This document shows positions 8,406 through 14,469 of a DNA stretch of 55,038 bases, one piece after another. Numbering within the stretch: position 1 is the first letter of the stretch; the number at the start of each line of letters is the position of its first letter. The position numbers were made by a program, and so were the translations under genes. Below the pieces are notes generated by a model that saw nothing but the letters and a program-made list of their open reading frames with translations, was not told the origin of the DNA and ran no database searches. Source of the DNA: Gaiellales bacterium (GTDB taxonomy: Bacteria; Actinomycetota; Thermoleophilia; Gaiellales; JAICJC01); assembly GCA_036273515.1 (NCBI GenBank), contig DASUHM010000001.1, positions 1 through 55,038 on the forward strand. The letters run 5' to 3'.

Positions 8406-9611
8406 ATGGCTCCCAACGGCCCGGGGAACATCGTGATCCCGCGGTGGATCCAGCTCGTGGGCCTGCCGCTCGTCGTGGTGGGCACGTGGCTGTTCGTGTC
8501 GGCCGTCAACGGGGCGGTGTTCGTGTTCGTGGTCGCGGCCCTGATCGCGATCCTCCTGAACCCGATCGTGCGCGCCTTCTGCGCGGTGCGCATCCCGCGC
8601 GGCCTCTCCGTCCTCCTGGTCTACGTGTGCTTCGCCGTCGCGATCGGCGGCATCAGCGTGATCGCCGGGACAGTGATCGCGCGCGAGGTGCAGTCGGTCG
8701 CAAACCGGGTGAACGACCAGTTCCGCGAGGACTCCCGCGGCGTCACCCCGGCCGACCGCAAGCTGAAGGACCTCCAGCACTGGATCAACACCTCGAGCCC
8801 GGTGAAGGTGAACGTCGTGAAGCCCGGCGAGCGGCTGCTCCACCACGTCGACGTGTCCCACCTGCAGCGCTACTCCGGCCGGGCAGTGTCGGAGGTGCAG
8901 TCGCTTCTGATCACCGTCTTCGAGAGCCTCTTCAACCTGGTGCTCGTGATCGTGATCTCGGTCTACATGCTCCTGGACGCGCCGCGGTTATCGCGGTTCT
9001 TACGCCGGGTCTTCCCGGGGTCCGACCCCGACGACGACCTGGTCACGCGCGTCGAGCGTGCGCTGCTCGCCTACATCCGCGGCCAGACGATGGTGTCGCT
9101 CGCCGTCGGCATCTCGGTCTTCATCGGCCTCGAGATCCTCGGCCTGACGGGGATCTTCCCGGCGGGCTCGACCTACGCGCTCGCCTTCGCCGGCTGGGCG
9201 GCGGTCGTCGAGATCATCCCGTACCTCGGCCCGTGGCTGGGCGCGCTGGCGCCGGCCGCGGTCGCCGCGACCGAGTCGCTTGGGGCCGTGATCGGCGTCG
9301 CCGTCCTCTTCCTCATCATCCACCAGATCGAGGGCCACATCATCGTGCCGAAGCTGATGGGCGGCGCGGTCAAGGTGCACCCGCTGGTCGTGATCTTCGC
9401 CCTGCTCGCCGCCGGCGAGCTCTACGGCCTGGCGGGCGTGTTCCTGGCGATGCCGCTCGTCGCCATCGGCCGCGAGATCGCGGCGTTCCTGTTCGAGCGG
9501 ATCAGCCTCGAGCCGTGGCGGGGCGGCCCGATCCCGGTCGAGGTCGACATCGAGCCGGGCGGCGGCGAGGCCGAGCCGGAGCATCCGCCGCCCGTGAGCG
9601 CGCGGGACTAG
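8406..9611 (+). CDS. AI-2E family transporter (DUF20/TqsA-PerM family permease)
   Basis: A 401-residue protein (404 if ATG 8397 is used) with about eight membrane helices: a pair near residues 15-50, one near 60-85, a long soluble section around 90-170, and the rest between about 175 and 370. The family's conserved second-half motifs are present: GQTMVSLAVG near 218-228, VVEIIPYLGPWLGALAP near 260-277, and HQIEGHIIVPKLMGGAVKVHPLVVI near 300-325. Members include exporters of autoinducer-2 and sodium/proton antiporters, so the substrate cannot be predicted. The C-terminal tail is acidic and proline-rich. The gene ends tail-to-tail with the TPR gene, sharing a CTAG. Confidence 0.88.
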   Translation: MAPNGPGNIVIPRWIQLVGLPLVVVGTWLFVSAVNGAVFVFVVAALIAILLNPIVRAFCAVRIPRGLSVLLVYVCFAVAIGGISVIAGTVIAREVQSVANRVNDQFREDSRGVTPADRKLKDLQHWINTSSPVKVNVVKPGERLLHHVDVSHLQRYSGRAVSEVQSLLITVFESLFNLVLVIVISVYMLLDAPRLSRFLRRVFPGSDPDDDLVTRVERALLAYIRGQTMVSLAVGISVFIGLEILGLTGIFPAGSTYALAFAGWAAVVEIIPYLGPWLGALAPAAVAATESLGAVIGVAVLFLIIHQIEGHIIVPKLMGGAVKVHPLVVIFALLAAGELYGLAGVFLAMPLVAIGREIAAFLFERISLEPWRGGPIPVEVDIEPGGGEAEPEHPPPVSARD

Positions 9612-10732
9612 ACGGTGTCCGGGCGGTCGTGGTTGGAGGGGGCGAGGTCGGCGGCCTGCTCGAACGCCTCCATCGCCGCCTCGGTGCGCCCCGCCTTGCG
9701 CAGGAACTTGCCGTACCAGCGGTAGGCCCGGCCGAGCTCGCAGTGCCAGCCGTTCTGGCGCCTGAGCGCGTCGATGGCCGCGGCGTAGGCCTTCTCGGCC
9801 CGGTCGGCCCGCCCGGTCTCGTCGTAGCTCCGGGCCAGGACGAGGTAGCTCTCGCCGAGCTGGCCGGGGACGGACAGGTTGCCGAGCAGCTCGATCGCCT
9901 CCCGGGCGAGGTCGGCCGCGCCCTCGGGGTCGCCCTGCTGCAGCGCGCGCCGGGCCTCCTCGACCCGCACGAAGCCCTCGTCCATGCCGCTCATGCGATC
10001 GCCGTAGGCCCGCCGGGCGGCGACCAGCTCGCGGCCGGCCTCATCGGCCTGGCCGTCGTCGAGCAGGATGTGGGCGTAGAGGAGATGGGACATGCCCTGG
10101 TCCCACTCGTTGCCGGTCTCGTTGGCGACCACGACGGCGCGGCGGGCGTACTCGACGGCGAGCGGCGTCTGCCCGGTGGCGGCGTAGAGGCGGGCGAGCG
10201 CGCGGTAGGCGTTCGAGCGGGTGGCCTTGTCGATCTCCTCGGCGTCCTCGCGCAGCGCGCCCGTGAGGACGGCGGTGGCGTGGCCGTAGTCGCCCGTGTC
10301 CGCGTAGGCGTAGCTCAGAAAGACGGTGTAGCCGACCATCTTGGCGGCGTCCGTCTCCGGCCGGTCGCGCATGCGCGCCAGGCACTCCTCCAGGATCTCG
10401 ATCGAGCGGGGGAGATTCGTGCCCTCGCCGTGGAGCCGGGCCAGCTCGCGGAAGAGCTCGAAGCGCTCCTCGGGATCGGCTTCTCCGCCCGCCCGTTCGA
10501 GCGCCTCCTCCAGGAGCTCGATCGCGCGCTCGAAGCGGCCCCGGCGCGATGCGATCAGGCCCAGCCCCTCGAGGGCGCGCGAGCCGGAGTCGCGGTCGTC
10601 CAGGGCCTCGGCGGTGCGCAGCGTGCGCAGGAGCAGCTCCTCGGCCTCGTCGAGGCGGTCGAGCGCGACCAGCATCATCGCCTCGGACACCTGTTGGCGC
10701 GGAACTGCCGCGGGGTCTTCGATGTCCGTCAA
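9608..10732 (-). CDS. TPR-repeat protein, HTH-less paralog of the neighbouring XRE regulator
   Basis: 374 residues from TTG 10732; a GGAG lies 8 bases upstream of this TTG, and no ATG or GTG fits the homologous region better. The whole chain is tetratricopeptide repeats with Ala/Leu-rich helix pairs. The repeats align along their length with the upstream gene product; both end with YGKFL, then a short insert, then EAFE/EAFEL AADLAPSN. The difference is that the XRE DNA-binding domain is missing. The gene follows the XRE gene after 22 bases on the same strand, so both are probably made from one mRNA. It could be a peptide- or protein-binding partner of the regulator. Function is inferred only. 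Confidence 0.75.
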   Translation of the reverse strand: MTDIEDPAAVPRQQVSEAMMLVALDRLDEAEELLLRTLRTAEALDDRDSGSRALEGLGLIASRRGRFERAIELLEEALERAGGEADPEERFELFRELARLHGEGTNLPRSIEILEECLARMRDRPETDAAKMVGYTVFLSYAYADTGDYGHATAVLTGALREDAEEIDKATRSNAYRALARLYAATGQTPLAVEYARRAVVVANETGNEWDQGMSHLLYAHILLDDGQADEAGRELVAARRAYGDRMSGMDEGFVRVEEARRALQQGDPEGAADLAREAIELLGNLSVPGQLGESYLVLARSYDETGRADRAEKAYAAAIDALRRQNGWHCELGRAYRWYGKFLRKAGRTEAAMEAFEQAADLAPSNHDRPDTV

Positions 10733-10754
10733 GAGATCCGCTCCAGGGAGCGCC

Positions 10755-12170
10755 TCAGATGTCCGACGGCAACCTGATGTCCGCGGTCGGCAGCGGCGCC
10801 AGGGCGTCCTGGTTGGACGGCGCCAGGTCGGCCGCGAGCTCGAACGCCTCGAGGGCCGCCTCGGCCCGGCCGAGCCGCTTGAGGAACTTGCCGTAGTGGC
10901 GGTAGGCCCGCGCCAGCGCCGGGGCGCCGTCCGGCTGGCGCTGGAGGGAGGCGATCGCAGCCGCGTAGGCCGTGTCGGCCCGCTCCAGCTCGCCGAGCTC
11001 GTCCTGCACCCGGGCGAGCACGAGATGGGCCTCGCCGACGCGCCCGTCGGCCGCCGCCCCGTCGAGCACCGTGACCGCCTCGGTCGCGTAGCGGACGGCC
11101 TCCTCGCCGTTGCCGACCTGGAGGGCGTGGCGGGCCTCTTCGACGAGCAGGCGGCCCCGCTCGACGGGCTCGGCCGCCGGCCCGAACACCTCGCGGGCGG
11201 CGCGCAGGTGGTTGGCCGCCTCCTCGGTGTCGCCCTGGTCGAGCAGCCGCTGCGCGTAGGTGAGGTGGGCCTCGCCCAGCGCGCGGTTGTCGTCGGCCAG
11301 CTCGTAGAGCGCGAGGGCGCGGTCGGAGAAGCGGATCGCCTGGTCGAGCGCGCCGGCCGCGGCATGGCTGCGCGAGATCGCATACTGGCTGGCGGCGCGT
11401 GACGCCAGGTCGACGCCCTGGGCGCGGTCGGCCAGCGCCTCGGCGAGCGCGCTCGCGGACCGGGCGAAGGCCCCGGCCTCGGCGTAGGCCTCGCTCAGCC
11501 ACAGCGAGTAGCGCACAACCTTCGCCTCGTCCGCGGTGGCCTCGCGGCCAAGCCGGGCGATGCAGTCCTGGAGCAGCGCGAGCGCCCGGGCGACGTCGCC
11601 GGAGCGGCGGTAGATCTCCTGCAGGCGGCCGTAGAGCTGCACCCGCTGGGCCGGATCGGGCGGCGTGCCGACCTCGAGCGCCTGCTCGAGCAGCCGGCGG
11701 GCCTCGCGGTCGTCGCCGCGCTCCGCTGCCAGGACGCCCAGGCCCTCGCAGGCCTCGCTCATGCGCTCGCCGTCGCCGTTCACCTCGGCCTCGCGCAGGA
11801 CGCCGCGCAGAAGCTCCTCGGACTCCTCGAGCCGGCCCATGCGGCCGAGCACCATCGCGTCGAGCAGCTCGAGCGAGCGCGGCCGCTGCTGCGGCGCCGT
11901 CTCGCCGGTGAGCTCCTCCGTGCTGACGCCGAGCCGGCGGGCGATCTCCATCAGCACGCGCGGGCTGGGACGGCGGTCGCCGGCCTCGATCCTGGCCAGG
12001 TAGCTGTACGAGCAGCCCTCGAACGAGAGGTCGCGCTGGGTCATCCCGCGCTTGCGGCGCAGGTGGCGGACGCGGGCGCCGAGCTTGCGCAGCGCTTCGT
12101 TGGAGTACTCGCCCTCGTGGAGCTGCGAGACGTCCATGTCTTGACCTTCGCCAGACTCCAGCCAGTCCAT
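10755..12170 (-). CDS. XRE-family transcriptional regulator with C-terminal TPR repeats
   Basis: 471 residues from ATG 12170; ATG 12137 is an alternative, but TAGGAT ends 8 bases before 12170, matching the leaderless pattern of the window. An XRE helix-turn-helix occupies about residues 27-86, with RVRHLRRKRGMTQRDLS and YLARIEAGDRRPSPRVLMEIARRLGV. The rest, about 100-460, is a TPR superhelix of roughly eight to nine repeats. This architecture resembles peptide-sensing RRNPP regulators and many actinobacterial XRE-TPR proteins, which bind a ligand in the TPR groove. It is divergent from hemB, so it may control that operon, itself and the downstream TPR paralog. The ligand is unknown, and no adjacent propeptide gene is visible. 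Confidence 0.85.
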   Translation of the reverse strand: MDWLESGEGQDMDVSQLHEGEYSNEALRKLGARVRHLRRKRGMTQRDLSFEGCSYSYLARIEAGDRRPSPRVLMEIARRLGVSTEELTGETAPQQRPRSLELLDAMVLGRMGRLEESEELLRGVLREAEVNGDGERMSEACEGLGVLAAERGDDREARRLLEQALEVGTPPDPAQRVQLYGRLQEIYRRSGDVARALALLQDCIARLGREATADEAKVVRYSLWLSEAYAEAGAFARSASALAEALADRAQGVDLASRAASQYAISRSHAAAGALDQAIRFSDRALALYELADDNRALGEAHLTYAQRLLDQGDTEEAANHLRAAREVFGPAAEPVERGRLLVEEARHALQVGNGEEAVRYATEAVTVLDGAAADGRVGEAHLVLARVQDELGELERADTAYAAAIASLQRQPDGAPALARAYRHYGKFLKRLGRAEAALEAFELAADLAPSNQDALAPLPTADIRLPSDI

Positions 12171-12178
12171 TCTTGGCA

Positions 12179-12184
12179 ATCCTA
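12179..12184 (-). promoter_or_regulatory. -10-like hexamer TAGGAT for the XRE-TPR gene
   Basis: The minus-strand hexamer ends 8 bases before ATG 12170. It lies 42 bases from the hemB hexamer on the opposite strand, with a short GCACC/GGTGC inverted repeat between them that could be an operator. Confidence 0.4.
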
Positions 12185-12226
12185 CTGCACCCGCCCTGGT
12201 GCGGCAAGAACAACGCGAGCCAGGAC

Positions 12227-12232
12227 TACACT
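12227..12232 (+). promoter_or_regulatory. hemB: -10-like hexamer TACACT for hemB
   Basis: TACACT ends 6 bases before ATG 12239, so transcription should begin at or next to the start codon. No recognisable -35 or Shine-Dalgarno site is present. Confidence 0.5.
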
Positions 12233-12238
12233 CATCGC

Positions 12239-13210
12239 ATGCCGTTTCCCACCACGCGCCTGCGCCGTTTGAGGCGGACGTCAGGCATCCGGCAGATGGT
12301 GCGCGAGACGCGCCTGACCCCGTCAAATCTGATCCAACCGCTCTTCGTCCGCCACGGCGGCGGCGAGTCGACGCCGATCGACTCGATGCCCGGCCAGGGC
12401 CACCACGGCATCGACGGGCTGGTCGAGACGGCGGCCGAGGTGCACGCCGCGGGCATCCCGGCGGTGCTGATCTTCGGCCTCCCCGCTCGCAAGGACGAGG
12501 CCGGCAGCGAGGCCTACGATCCGGAGGGGATCGTCCAGCTCGGCGTCCGCGCCGTCAAGGCGGAGGTGCCCGAGCTCACTGTCATCACCGACGTGTGCCT
12601 GTGCCAGTACACCTCGCACGGCCACTGCGGCGTCCTGCGCGACGGGGTCGTCGAGAACGACATCAGCCTGGAGCTCCTGGCCGACACGGCCGTCTCCCAC
12701 GCCGCGGCGGGCGCCGACATGGTCGCGCCCTCCGACATGATGGACGGCCGCGTCGGCGCGATCCGCTCGTCGCTCGACAACGAGGGCCTGACCGACACCG
12801 CGATCATGGCCTACAGCGCCAAGTTTGCCTCGGCCTTCTACGGGCCGTTCCGCGACGCCGCCCACTCCACGCCTTCCGAGGGCGACCGCAAGGGCTACCA
12901 GATGGATCCGGGCAACGGCAACGAGGCCGTGCGCGAGGCGCTGCTCGACATCGAGGAGGGTGCCGACCTCGTCATGGTGAAGCCGGCGCTGCCCTACCTC
13001 GACGTCCTCCGCCGGCTGCGGTCGGAGACGCTCGTCCCCCTCGCGGCGTACCAGGTCAGCGGCGAGTACGCGATGCTCGAGGCGGCCGCCGCCCGCGGCG
13101 TCGTCGACCGCCGCGCCGCCGCGCTCGAGGCGCTCACCGGCATCCGCCGTGCCGGCGCCGACCTCGTGATCACGTACTACGCCGCCGAGGCGGCGAGGTG
13201 GCTGTCCTAG
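12239..13210 (+). CDS. hemB: Delta-aminolevulinic acid dehydratase (porphobilinogen synthase)
   Basis: A 323-residue protein of normal family length. It condenses two 5-aminolevulinate molecules to porphobilinogen in tetrapyrrole (heme) synthesis in the cytoplasm. Both Schiff-base lysines are seen: Lys195 in AYSAKFASAFYGPFRDA and Lys248 in MVKPALPYLD. The metal-binding loop DVCLCQYTSHGHCG carries Cys120, Cys122 and Cys130, so this is the zinc type rather than the Asp-rich magnesium type. The next gene, hemL, starts 13 bases inside the hemB 3' end. hemL makes the substrate of HemB, so the pair catalyses consecutive steps. Confidence 0.97.
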   Translation: MPFPTTRLRRLRRTSGIRQMVRETRLTPSNLIQPLFVRHGGGESTPIDSMPGQGHHGIDGLVETAAEVHAAGIPAVLIFGLPARKDEAGSEAYDPEGIVQLGVRAVKAEVPELTVITDVCLCQYTSHGHCGVLRDGVVENDISLELLADTAVSHAAAGADMVAPSDMMDGRVGAIRSSLDNEGLTDTAIMAYSAKFASAFYGPFRDAAHSTPSEGDRKGYQMDPGNGNEAVREALLDIEEGADLVMVKPALPYLDVLRRLRSETLVPLAAYQVSGEYAMLEAAAARGVVDRRAAALEALTGIRRAGADLVITYYAAEAARWLS

Positions 13211-14469
13211 CCGAGACGCAGTCGGCGCGGCTCTTCGAGGAGGCCCGCCGGCTCATGCCCGGCGGTGTCTCGAGCCCGGTGCGGGCGATGCGCTCGGTCG
13301 GCCGAGACCATCCCCTGTTCCTGGCCCGCGGGGCCGGCGGCGAGGTGTGGGACGCCGACGGCAACCGCTACGTCGACTGGGTGCAGTCGTGGGGGCCGCT
13401 GATCGCCGGCCACGCCCATCCCGACGTGGTCGCCGCCGTCACGGCGACCGCCGAGAAGGGCACGTCGTTCGGAGCGCCCACCGAGGTCGAGGTCGAGCTG
13501 GCCCGCGAGGTGTGTGCCGCGGTGGGGTCGCTCGAGCAGGTGCGGTTCGTCTCGTCGGGCACCGAGGCCGTCATGAGCGCGCTGCGGCTGGCGCGGGCGC
13601 ATACGGGCCGGACGAAGATCGTCAAGTTCGCGGGCGGCTATCACGGGCACGCCGACGCGCTGCTGGCCCAGGCCGGATCGGGCCTGGCGACGCTCGGCAT
13701 CCCCTCCAGCCCCGGCGTGCCGCCGGCCGTGGCCGCCGACACGCTCGTGTGCGAGTACAACGACCTCGACGGCGTGCGGGCGGCCGCCGAGCGCCACGGC
13801 GACGACCTGGCCGCGATCATCGTCGAGCCCGTCGCGGGCAACATGGGCGTCGTCCCGCCGCGGCCGGGCTTCCTCGAGGGCCTGCGCACGGTGTGCAACG
13901 GCACGGGGGCGCTGCTCGTGATGGACGAGGTCATCACCGGCTTCCGGGTCGGCTACGGCGGCGGCCAGGAGCGGCTCGCCGTCCGCGCCGACCTGACCTG
14001 CCTCGGCAAGATCGTCGGCGGCGGGCTGCCGGCGGCGGCGTTCGGCGGCAGCTCGGCGATCATGGGCCGGCTGGCGCCGGAGGGCGACGTCTACCAGGCG
14101 GGCACCCTGTCCGGGAACCCGCTGGCGATGGCCGCCGGCCTGGCGACGCTCGCGCTGCTGCGCGAGCCGGGCGCCTACGACCGGCTCGAGGAGACCTCCG
14201 CGGCGCTCGCGGCCGGCCTGGAGGCGCCCGGGGTGACCGTGAACCGGGTCGGCGCGATGCTGACCGCCTTCTTCCATCCCGGCCCCGTGAGCTCGTTCGC
14301 CGATGCGGCTGCGAGCGACACCGAGCGCTTCGCCCGCTTCCACGCCCACATGCTCGCGCACGGCATCTACATCGCCCCGTCGCAGTTCGAGGCGCTCATG
14401 CCCTCGCTCGCCCACACGCCGGAGCAGGTCGAGCGGACCGCGGCGGCCGCGGCGGAGTTCGCGGGGTGA
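13198..14469 (+). CDS. hemL: Glutamate-1-semialdehyde 2,1-aminomutase
   Basis: A 423-residue class-III PLP aminotransferase-fold protein. It converts glutamate-1-semialdehyde to 5-aminolevulinate, the C5 route to heme. GSA-aminomutase hallmarks: RRLMPGGVSSPVRA near the N-terminus, the phosphate-binding SSGTEAVMSALRLAR at 119-133, DEVITGFR with Asp243, and the PLP lysine Lys271 in CLGKIVGGGLP. GTG 13198 is chosen because it gives the expected N-terminus and GAGG lies 6 bases upstream inside hemB. The gene is translationally coupled to the following small gene, which starts at GTG 14466 over its stop codon. Confidence 0.96.
   Translation: MAVLAETQSARLFEEARRLMPGGVSSPVRAMRSVGRDHPLFLARGAGGEVWDADGNRYVDWVQSWGPLIAGHAHPDVVAAVTATAEKGTSFGAPTEVEVELAREVCAAVGSLEQVRFVSSGTEAVMSALRLARAHTGRTKIVKFAGGYHGHADALLAQAGSGLATLGIPSSPGVPPAVAADTLVCEYNDLDGVRAAAERHGDDLAAIIVEPVAGNMGVVPPRPGFLEGLRTVCNGTGALLVMDEVITGFRVGYGGGQERLAVRADLTCLGKIVGGGLPAAAFGGSSAIMGRLAPEGDVYQAGTLSGNPLAMAAGLATLALLREPGAYDRLEETSAALAAGLEAPGVTVNRVGAMLTAFFHPGPVSSFADAAASDTERFARFHAHMLAHGIYIAPSQFEALMPSLAHTPEQVERTAAAAAEFAG

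Follow-up and report, generated by a model that had tools for sequence, protein, structure and literature searches.

A helix-turn-helix-less duplicate of a tetratricopeptide repeat regulator of Gaiellales, found beside hemB and a candidate antagonist or ligand sink

In a 55,038-nt stretch of DNA from a Gaiellales bacterium, an uncultured actinobacterium (assembly GCA_036273515.1, contig DASUHM010000001.1; hereafter the window), a regulator of the XRE type carrying tetratricopeptide repeats (TPRs) is followed directly by a second TPR protein that resembles it and has no DNA-binding domain, the pair being divergent from hemB. This locus raises the question of what use a bacterium might make of a regulator copy without the means of contacting DNA. 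The arrangement proves to be real and old, and comparative sequence analysis suggests that the copy may counteract the regulator or soak up its signal. The regulator (10755-12170, minus strand; 471 aa) has a disordered N-terminus, a Cro/C1-type helix-turn-helix (HTH) domain and nine TPRs; in a 460-aa form numbered from an internal ATG at 12137, HTH_3 matches residues 24-76 (E 4e-13), with the TPRs after it (TPR_12, E 4.9e-18). We prefer the upstream ATG at 12170, because an upstream start (ATG or GTG), a -10 element, a 17-bp spacer and an 8-bp gap are kept in all four genomes of the window's family that carry the regulator. The paralog (9608-10732, minus strand; 374 aa) begins at a TTG with a GGAG 8 nt upstream, and has nine TPRs (TPR_12, E 5.7e-22) and no HTH domain. 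The two proteins are 42% identical over 370 aligned residues (E 9e-80), and the start of the paralog falls opposite regulator residue 76 (460-aa numbering), immediately past the HTH. As the gap between the genes is only 22 bp in the window (38 bp in the congeneric genome G001), an HTH cannot hide between them. That gap, the full HTH gene upstream and four intact orthologs (the window's included) led us to reject the notion that the HTH-less gene is a frameshift artefact. The original prediction, made from the letters of the window, had described this tandem, its outer limits and the TTG start with its Shine-Dalgarno sequence correctly.

The window's family comprises five genomes: that of the window (G000), G001, G002, and the sister-genus G003 and G004, with G001 and G004 recorded as Thermoleophilia metagenome-assembled genomes. 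G002 (82% complete) is without the whole block and might be read as a counter-example; as it also has no hemB, no close hemL and no close AI-2E gene, it is uninformative and was set aside, leaving four informative genomes, the window included. In all four the paralog is intact, at about 42-59% identity to the window copy, and its absence or frameshift in close relatives, which the original prediction had named as telling against the proposal, is therefore not what we found. G001 has the window's layout, hemL-hemB-regulator-paralog-AI-2E, with 66% identity for the regulator and 59% for the paralog. In G003 and G004, hemB and the regulator (60% identity) lie together, with the AI-2E gene next in G003, and the HTH-less paralog (46-47% and 42-43% identity) is unlinked, 33-34 bp past the ygfZ stop codon. 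These unlinked copies (G003:C34, L038 7037-8095; G004:C147, L040 6533-7600) start at GTG, preceded at 8-9 bp by a hexamer resembling a -10 element, the promoter-like sequence in G004 being TTGAAG-17-TACTCT, and they are probably leaderless and separately transcribed. Within about 1.5 kb around ygfZ in G000, G001 and G002, no TPR or XRE match was found. All eight genes (four regulators and four paralogs) have uninterrupted reading frames. The ratio of nonsynonymous to synonymous divergence (dN/dS, by NG86) is 0.53 for the paralog, 0.54 for the regulator and 0.25 for hemB between the window and G001, and 0.38, 0.19 and 0.12, respectively, between G003 and G004; these figures are rough, as G+C content at third codon positions is 0.87-0.96 and dS is unreliable under such codon bias. 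The paralog outpaces hemB in divergence in both genera.

The age of the duplication was assessed with a tree of 35 rows and TPR columns only, in which all eight family proteins group together (100/100), as do, within that clade, the four hemB-linked regulators (100/99). Because the hemB-linked regulators form a clade of their own, the duplication is older than the split of the two genera; a constraint joining the four g1 proteins, representing a duplication within the g1 genus, was disfavored (approximately unbiased test, p-AU 0.024). These results support an ancient duplicate minus its HTH, as does the intact state of the paralog in all four genomes, and so agree with the earlier suggestion of duplication followed by clean HTH loss. 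Among the 28 outgroup proteins, an HTH was recognized by motif in 26 and on inspection in L018, and L032 is cut at a contig end. One XRE-TPR relative, L034 (G012:C33:77650-78672), has a single in-frame TAG within the match and is possibly a pseudogene; three further clear copies of XRE-TPR proteins occur in the window's genome. When 399 genomes of the class were searched at E 1e-50, with five candidates scored per genome, 19 genomes had a match, those outside the window's family being inspected in part, not one by one. The eight proteins from the four family genomes scored at least 313 bits, and the next best 205 bits. A GTDB scan gave four loci, the fourth of which (L057, with some stretches masked) has a regulator and no adjacent paralog. 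This record (VBJV01000320.1, 1-3433), titled 'Chloroflexi bacterium', carries the family regulator, then an AI-2E-like gene and the window's next genes in the same order, and seems to be a misnamed Thermoleophilia relative.

The two proteins also have a conserved surface in common. The concave face of a TPR array is formed by positions 2, 5, 6, 9, 12 and 13 of each repeat in canonical numbering. Positions 8 and 20 of the repeats gave us the TPR register, with the predicted helices as a check; the categories of groove position were set before the first comparison, yet after the alignment had been seen. In TPR6-9 (paralog residues 209-362; codons 9647-10108, minus strand, coordinates derived from residue numbers), identity between paralog and regulator is 0.67 at concave positions versus 0.39 at the remaining exposed ones (permutation p 0.0007), rising to 0.82 versus 0.36 in TPR7-8 alone; in TPR1-5 it is 0.26 versus 0.34. 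The paralogs compared mutually likewise reach 0.72 in the TPR6-9 groove versus 0.40 elsewhere. In 26 other XRE-TPR proteins, by contrast, the groove is kept in TPR1-5 (0.47 versus 0.29) and not in TPR6-9 (0.27 versus 0.29), and pairs of such proteins from the order at 35-60% identity (115 of 325), an overall level similar to that between paralog and regulator, give 0.58 versus 0.36 and 0.35 versus 0.36, respectively. Four alternative sets of concave positions yielded the same outcome. Among the conserved groove residues of the paralog (D225, E258, R261, L297, R301, D304, R338 and K342), R301, D304, K342 and L297 are invariant in all eight family proteins and occur in 3, 0, 2 and 1 of the 26 outgroup proteins, respectively. 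Since the TPR6-9 groove is common to both proteins and is not kept in other XRE-TPR proteins, the pair shares a family-specific recognition groove, which favors binding of the regulator's own ligand or partner by the paralog, as antagonist or sink. The earlier proposal of competition for the regulator's ligand gains support from this groove. In the order's XRE-TPR proteins (L003-L005, L010-L034), it is the concave TPR1-5 surface that is conserved, with a residue matching R181 in 25 of 26, and the widespread XRE-TPR family may have a common ligand there. We know of no ligand of the XRE-TPR proteins of these actinobacteria.

Structure prediction gave nine TPRs for the paralog, with TPR1 from residue 9 (predicted local distance difference test, pLDDT, 89.7; predicted TM-score, pTM, 0.84), and an HTH plus nine TPRs for the regulator (pLDDT 84.8, pTM 0.67). 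When the paralog model was compared with solved structures, the highest matches included TTC7B (Z 26.7) and LGN (Z 25.6). Rap with the competence and sporulation factor (4gyo) gave Z 24.5, with a root-mean-square deviation (rmsd) of 5.6 over 349 aligned residues, and NprR gave Z 22.9 (rmsd 4.0, 311 aligned), the range for Rap and NprR together being Z 22.5-24.5. Such matches indicate an extended TPR superhelix and do not assign a family; similarly, a sequence match to RapF (E 1.8e-6) is one among many TPR proteins. Matches of the two proteins to the NsdA family (NF053720) are weak, at E 2.7e-10 and 1.5e-18, and at 40.3 and 67.6 bits neither reaches the curated cut-off of 75.

The position of the pair next to hemB (porphobilinogen synthase; 12239-13210, plus strand; NF006762, E 1.2e-146), with hemL downstream at about 13207-14469, had prompted the suggestion that it controls heme synthesis. 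The regulator and hemB share an intergenic region of 68 bp (12171-12238; 59-60 bp in the three relatives). By eye, a -10 hexamer for the regulator, TAGGAT (12179-12184, minus strand), lies 8 bp before the ATG and 17 bp from TTGCCG (12202-12207); with 8 of 12 consensus matches, this putative promoter is under the threshold of the consensus scan, which detected neither promoter nor terminator in 9500-12400. Also by eye, the -35/-10 pairs in the four family genomes, all with a 17-bp spacer, are TTGCCG/TAGGAT, TTGTCC/TAGTCT, TTTACA/TAGGCT and TTTACA/TAGGAT. For hemB, the -10 TACACT (12227-12232, plus strand; by eye) lies 6 bp before the ATG with no recognizable -35, and TACACT or TACAAT is present in all four genomes. 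Both genes are probably leaderless throughout the family, with a -10 about 6-8 bp from the start codon. Because these putative promoters overlap back to back within 59-68 bp, a bound repressor could affect both, and the layout is compatible with control of hemB by the regulator. The other foundation of the suggestion, a GCACC/GGTGC repeat with a 6-nt loop (12188-12203) in the spacer of the putative regulator promoter, is not supported: 29% of shuffles of the region carry a 5-bp inverted repeat (3-10 bp loop), and the repeat is missing in the three relatives, each of which has some other repeat of similar size, none common to all four. We therefore rejected it as an operator. The predicted single transcript for regulator and paralog has its sole basis in their short spacing, the scan having returned no promoter or terminator that would bear on it. 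Downstream, the paralog stop overlaps by 4 bp that of the convergent AI-2E gene, which ends at 9611.

Across the order, hemB was detected in 51 of 61 genomes. Thirty hemB loci were tested; the regulator adjoins hemB in 4/4 of the window's family, versus a regulator relative in 0/26 of other families (about 1.5 kb examined, some loci cut by contig ends), and the linkage is therefore a trait of the window's family. General synteny of the block accounts for it as well as regulation does. When the conserved promoter box TAGNNTTGCCAMGARTG was used to look for a regulon, it matched only its own site at zero mismatch and three sites at two mismatches, a total of 4 versus 13 in a backward control, and hence revealed no regulon. 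The heme regulatory Cys-Pro motif is absent from all eight family proteins.

Our preferred, if tentative, explanation is that the regulator is accompanied by an HTH-less antagonist, or ligand or partner sink, that shares its groove. The regulator would be a cytoplasmic one-component protein, its superhelix of nine TPRs sensing a polar ligand or a partner protein in the concave TPR6-9 groove; from the shared 68-bp region, it would probably regulate itself through its leaderless promoter, and possibly hemB as well. The paralog would set the regulator's threshold, either by competing for the ligand or by pairing into dimers unable to bind DNA. Several points weigh against this explanation. The groove argument draws on eight sequences from one family, with non-independent groove positions, and paralog monophyly, implying a single HTH loss, appears in 20% of bootstrap trees (p-AU 0.4). 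The sister-genus paralog is not only unlinked, with a probable promoter to itself, it also diverges clearly faster, being 62% identical between G003 and G004 where the regulator is 85% identical. As Rap shows, moreover, a lineage that has shed its HTH can acquire very different targets. This last consideration underlies the explanation that we rank next, and regard as unlikely, in which a single signal drives two outputs, the paralog acting on another protein target and having only the ligand in common with the regulator. The sister-genus copies would be in keeping with such a divergence, as would the unlike concave TPR1-5 surfaces of the two proteins, the Rap-like fold of the paralog (4gyo) and, in the available portion of one account, the origin of the Rap subfamily by HTH loss (PMC12700828). 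Yet the paralog model begins with TPR1 and lacks the N-terminal three-helix bundle that precedes the TPRs in Rap, LGN and other eukaryotic TPR proteins reach equal scores, and in the window's genus the paralog remains in the regulator's putative operon.

A working regulator might instead be a mixed dimer or tetramer in which the paralog, as a co-regulator, is needed for DNA binding. The adjoining, likely co-transcribed genes of the window and G001 would suit this arrangement, which we nevertheless consider improbable: the unlinked, probably separately promoted and faster-diverging paralog of the sister genus is not what one would expect of an obligate 1:1 subunit, and the exposed helix-B faces of the paralogs are poorly conserved (0.38). 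With the sister-genus paralog located apart and probably under a promoter of its own, the dedicated partner of the original prediction is likewise not supported as an obligate, always co-transcribed one. Very doubtful, too, is a variant in which regulator and duplicate bind one acidic tetrapyrrole metabolite, such as the HemB substrate 5-aminolevulinate, in a newly evolved TPR6-9 groove, the duplicate buffering the signal so that hemB and the regulator switch at a set threshold. The least probable account is that the paralog is a functionless, drifting remnant; its faster divergence than hemB in both genera would agree with drift, but the four copies contain no internal stops, dN is lower than dS, and the groove is conserved well above the rest of the protein.

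A regulator with an HTH-less antagonist would have counterparts elsewhere. In Agrobacterium, TrlR blocks TraR via inactive dimers (PMC3907764), and in Cereibacter the HTH-less CerN binds CerM with an acyl-homoserine lactone (AHL), weakening DNA binding by CerM (PMC11655674), according to the available portions of these accounts. Like TrlR and CerN, the window paralog is a homolog of a regulator that keeps the sensing domain without the HTH; those systems are LuxR-type, with a C-terminal HTH and an AHL ligand, whereas the window's regulator has an N-terminal Cro/C1 HTH with TPRs. With the RRNPPA family (Rap, NprR, PlcR, Rgg, PrgX and AimR), the window pair has in common an HTH and a TPR superhelix; members other than Rap carry their HTH at the N-terminus, and the TPRs number five or nine, with nine in NprR and Rap (PMC12700828, PMC9765709). 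The window's proteins have nine, following HTH_3 in the regulator, although identity to the RRNPPA proteins is only 9-14%. Directly beside the pair there is no room for a cognate exported peptide gene of the RRNPPA type, the two genes being 22 bp apart, hemB 68 bp away and the AI-2E gene overlapping by 4 bp, although such a gene might lie at a distance. A further comparison is with Rco-pLS20, a repressor presumably of the Xre type. It is bound and inactivated by Rap-pLS20, an HTH-less TPR protein that the available part of the account does not describe as a paralog of the repressor (PMC7430634), whereas the window's two proteins are paralogs.

Antagonists lacking an HTH thus have precedents in TrlR and CerN, and TPR proteins lacking one have a precedent in Rap. 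No description of this regulator and HTH-less paralog pair was found in the literature listings searched; to that extent the family, its switch of groove and its place on the chromosome next to hemB are new, representing an actinobacterial XRE-TPR variant. XRE-TPR proteins are abundant in these actinobacteria, and a natural pair bearing one groove with and without an HTH separates sensing from DNA binding. The pair would show actinobacterial TPR regulators reaching the decoy logic of TrlR and CerN, or the route of Rap taken independently.

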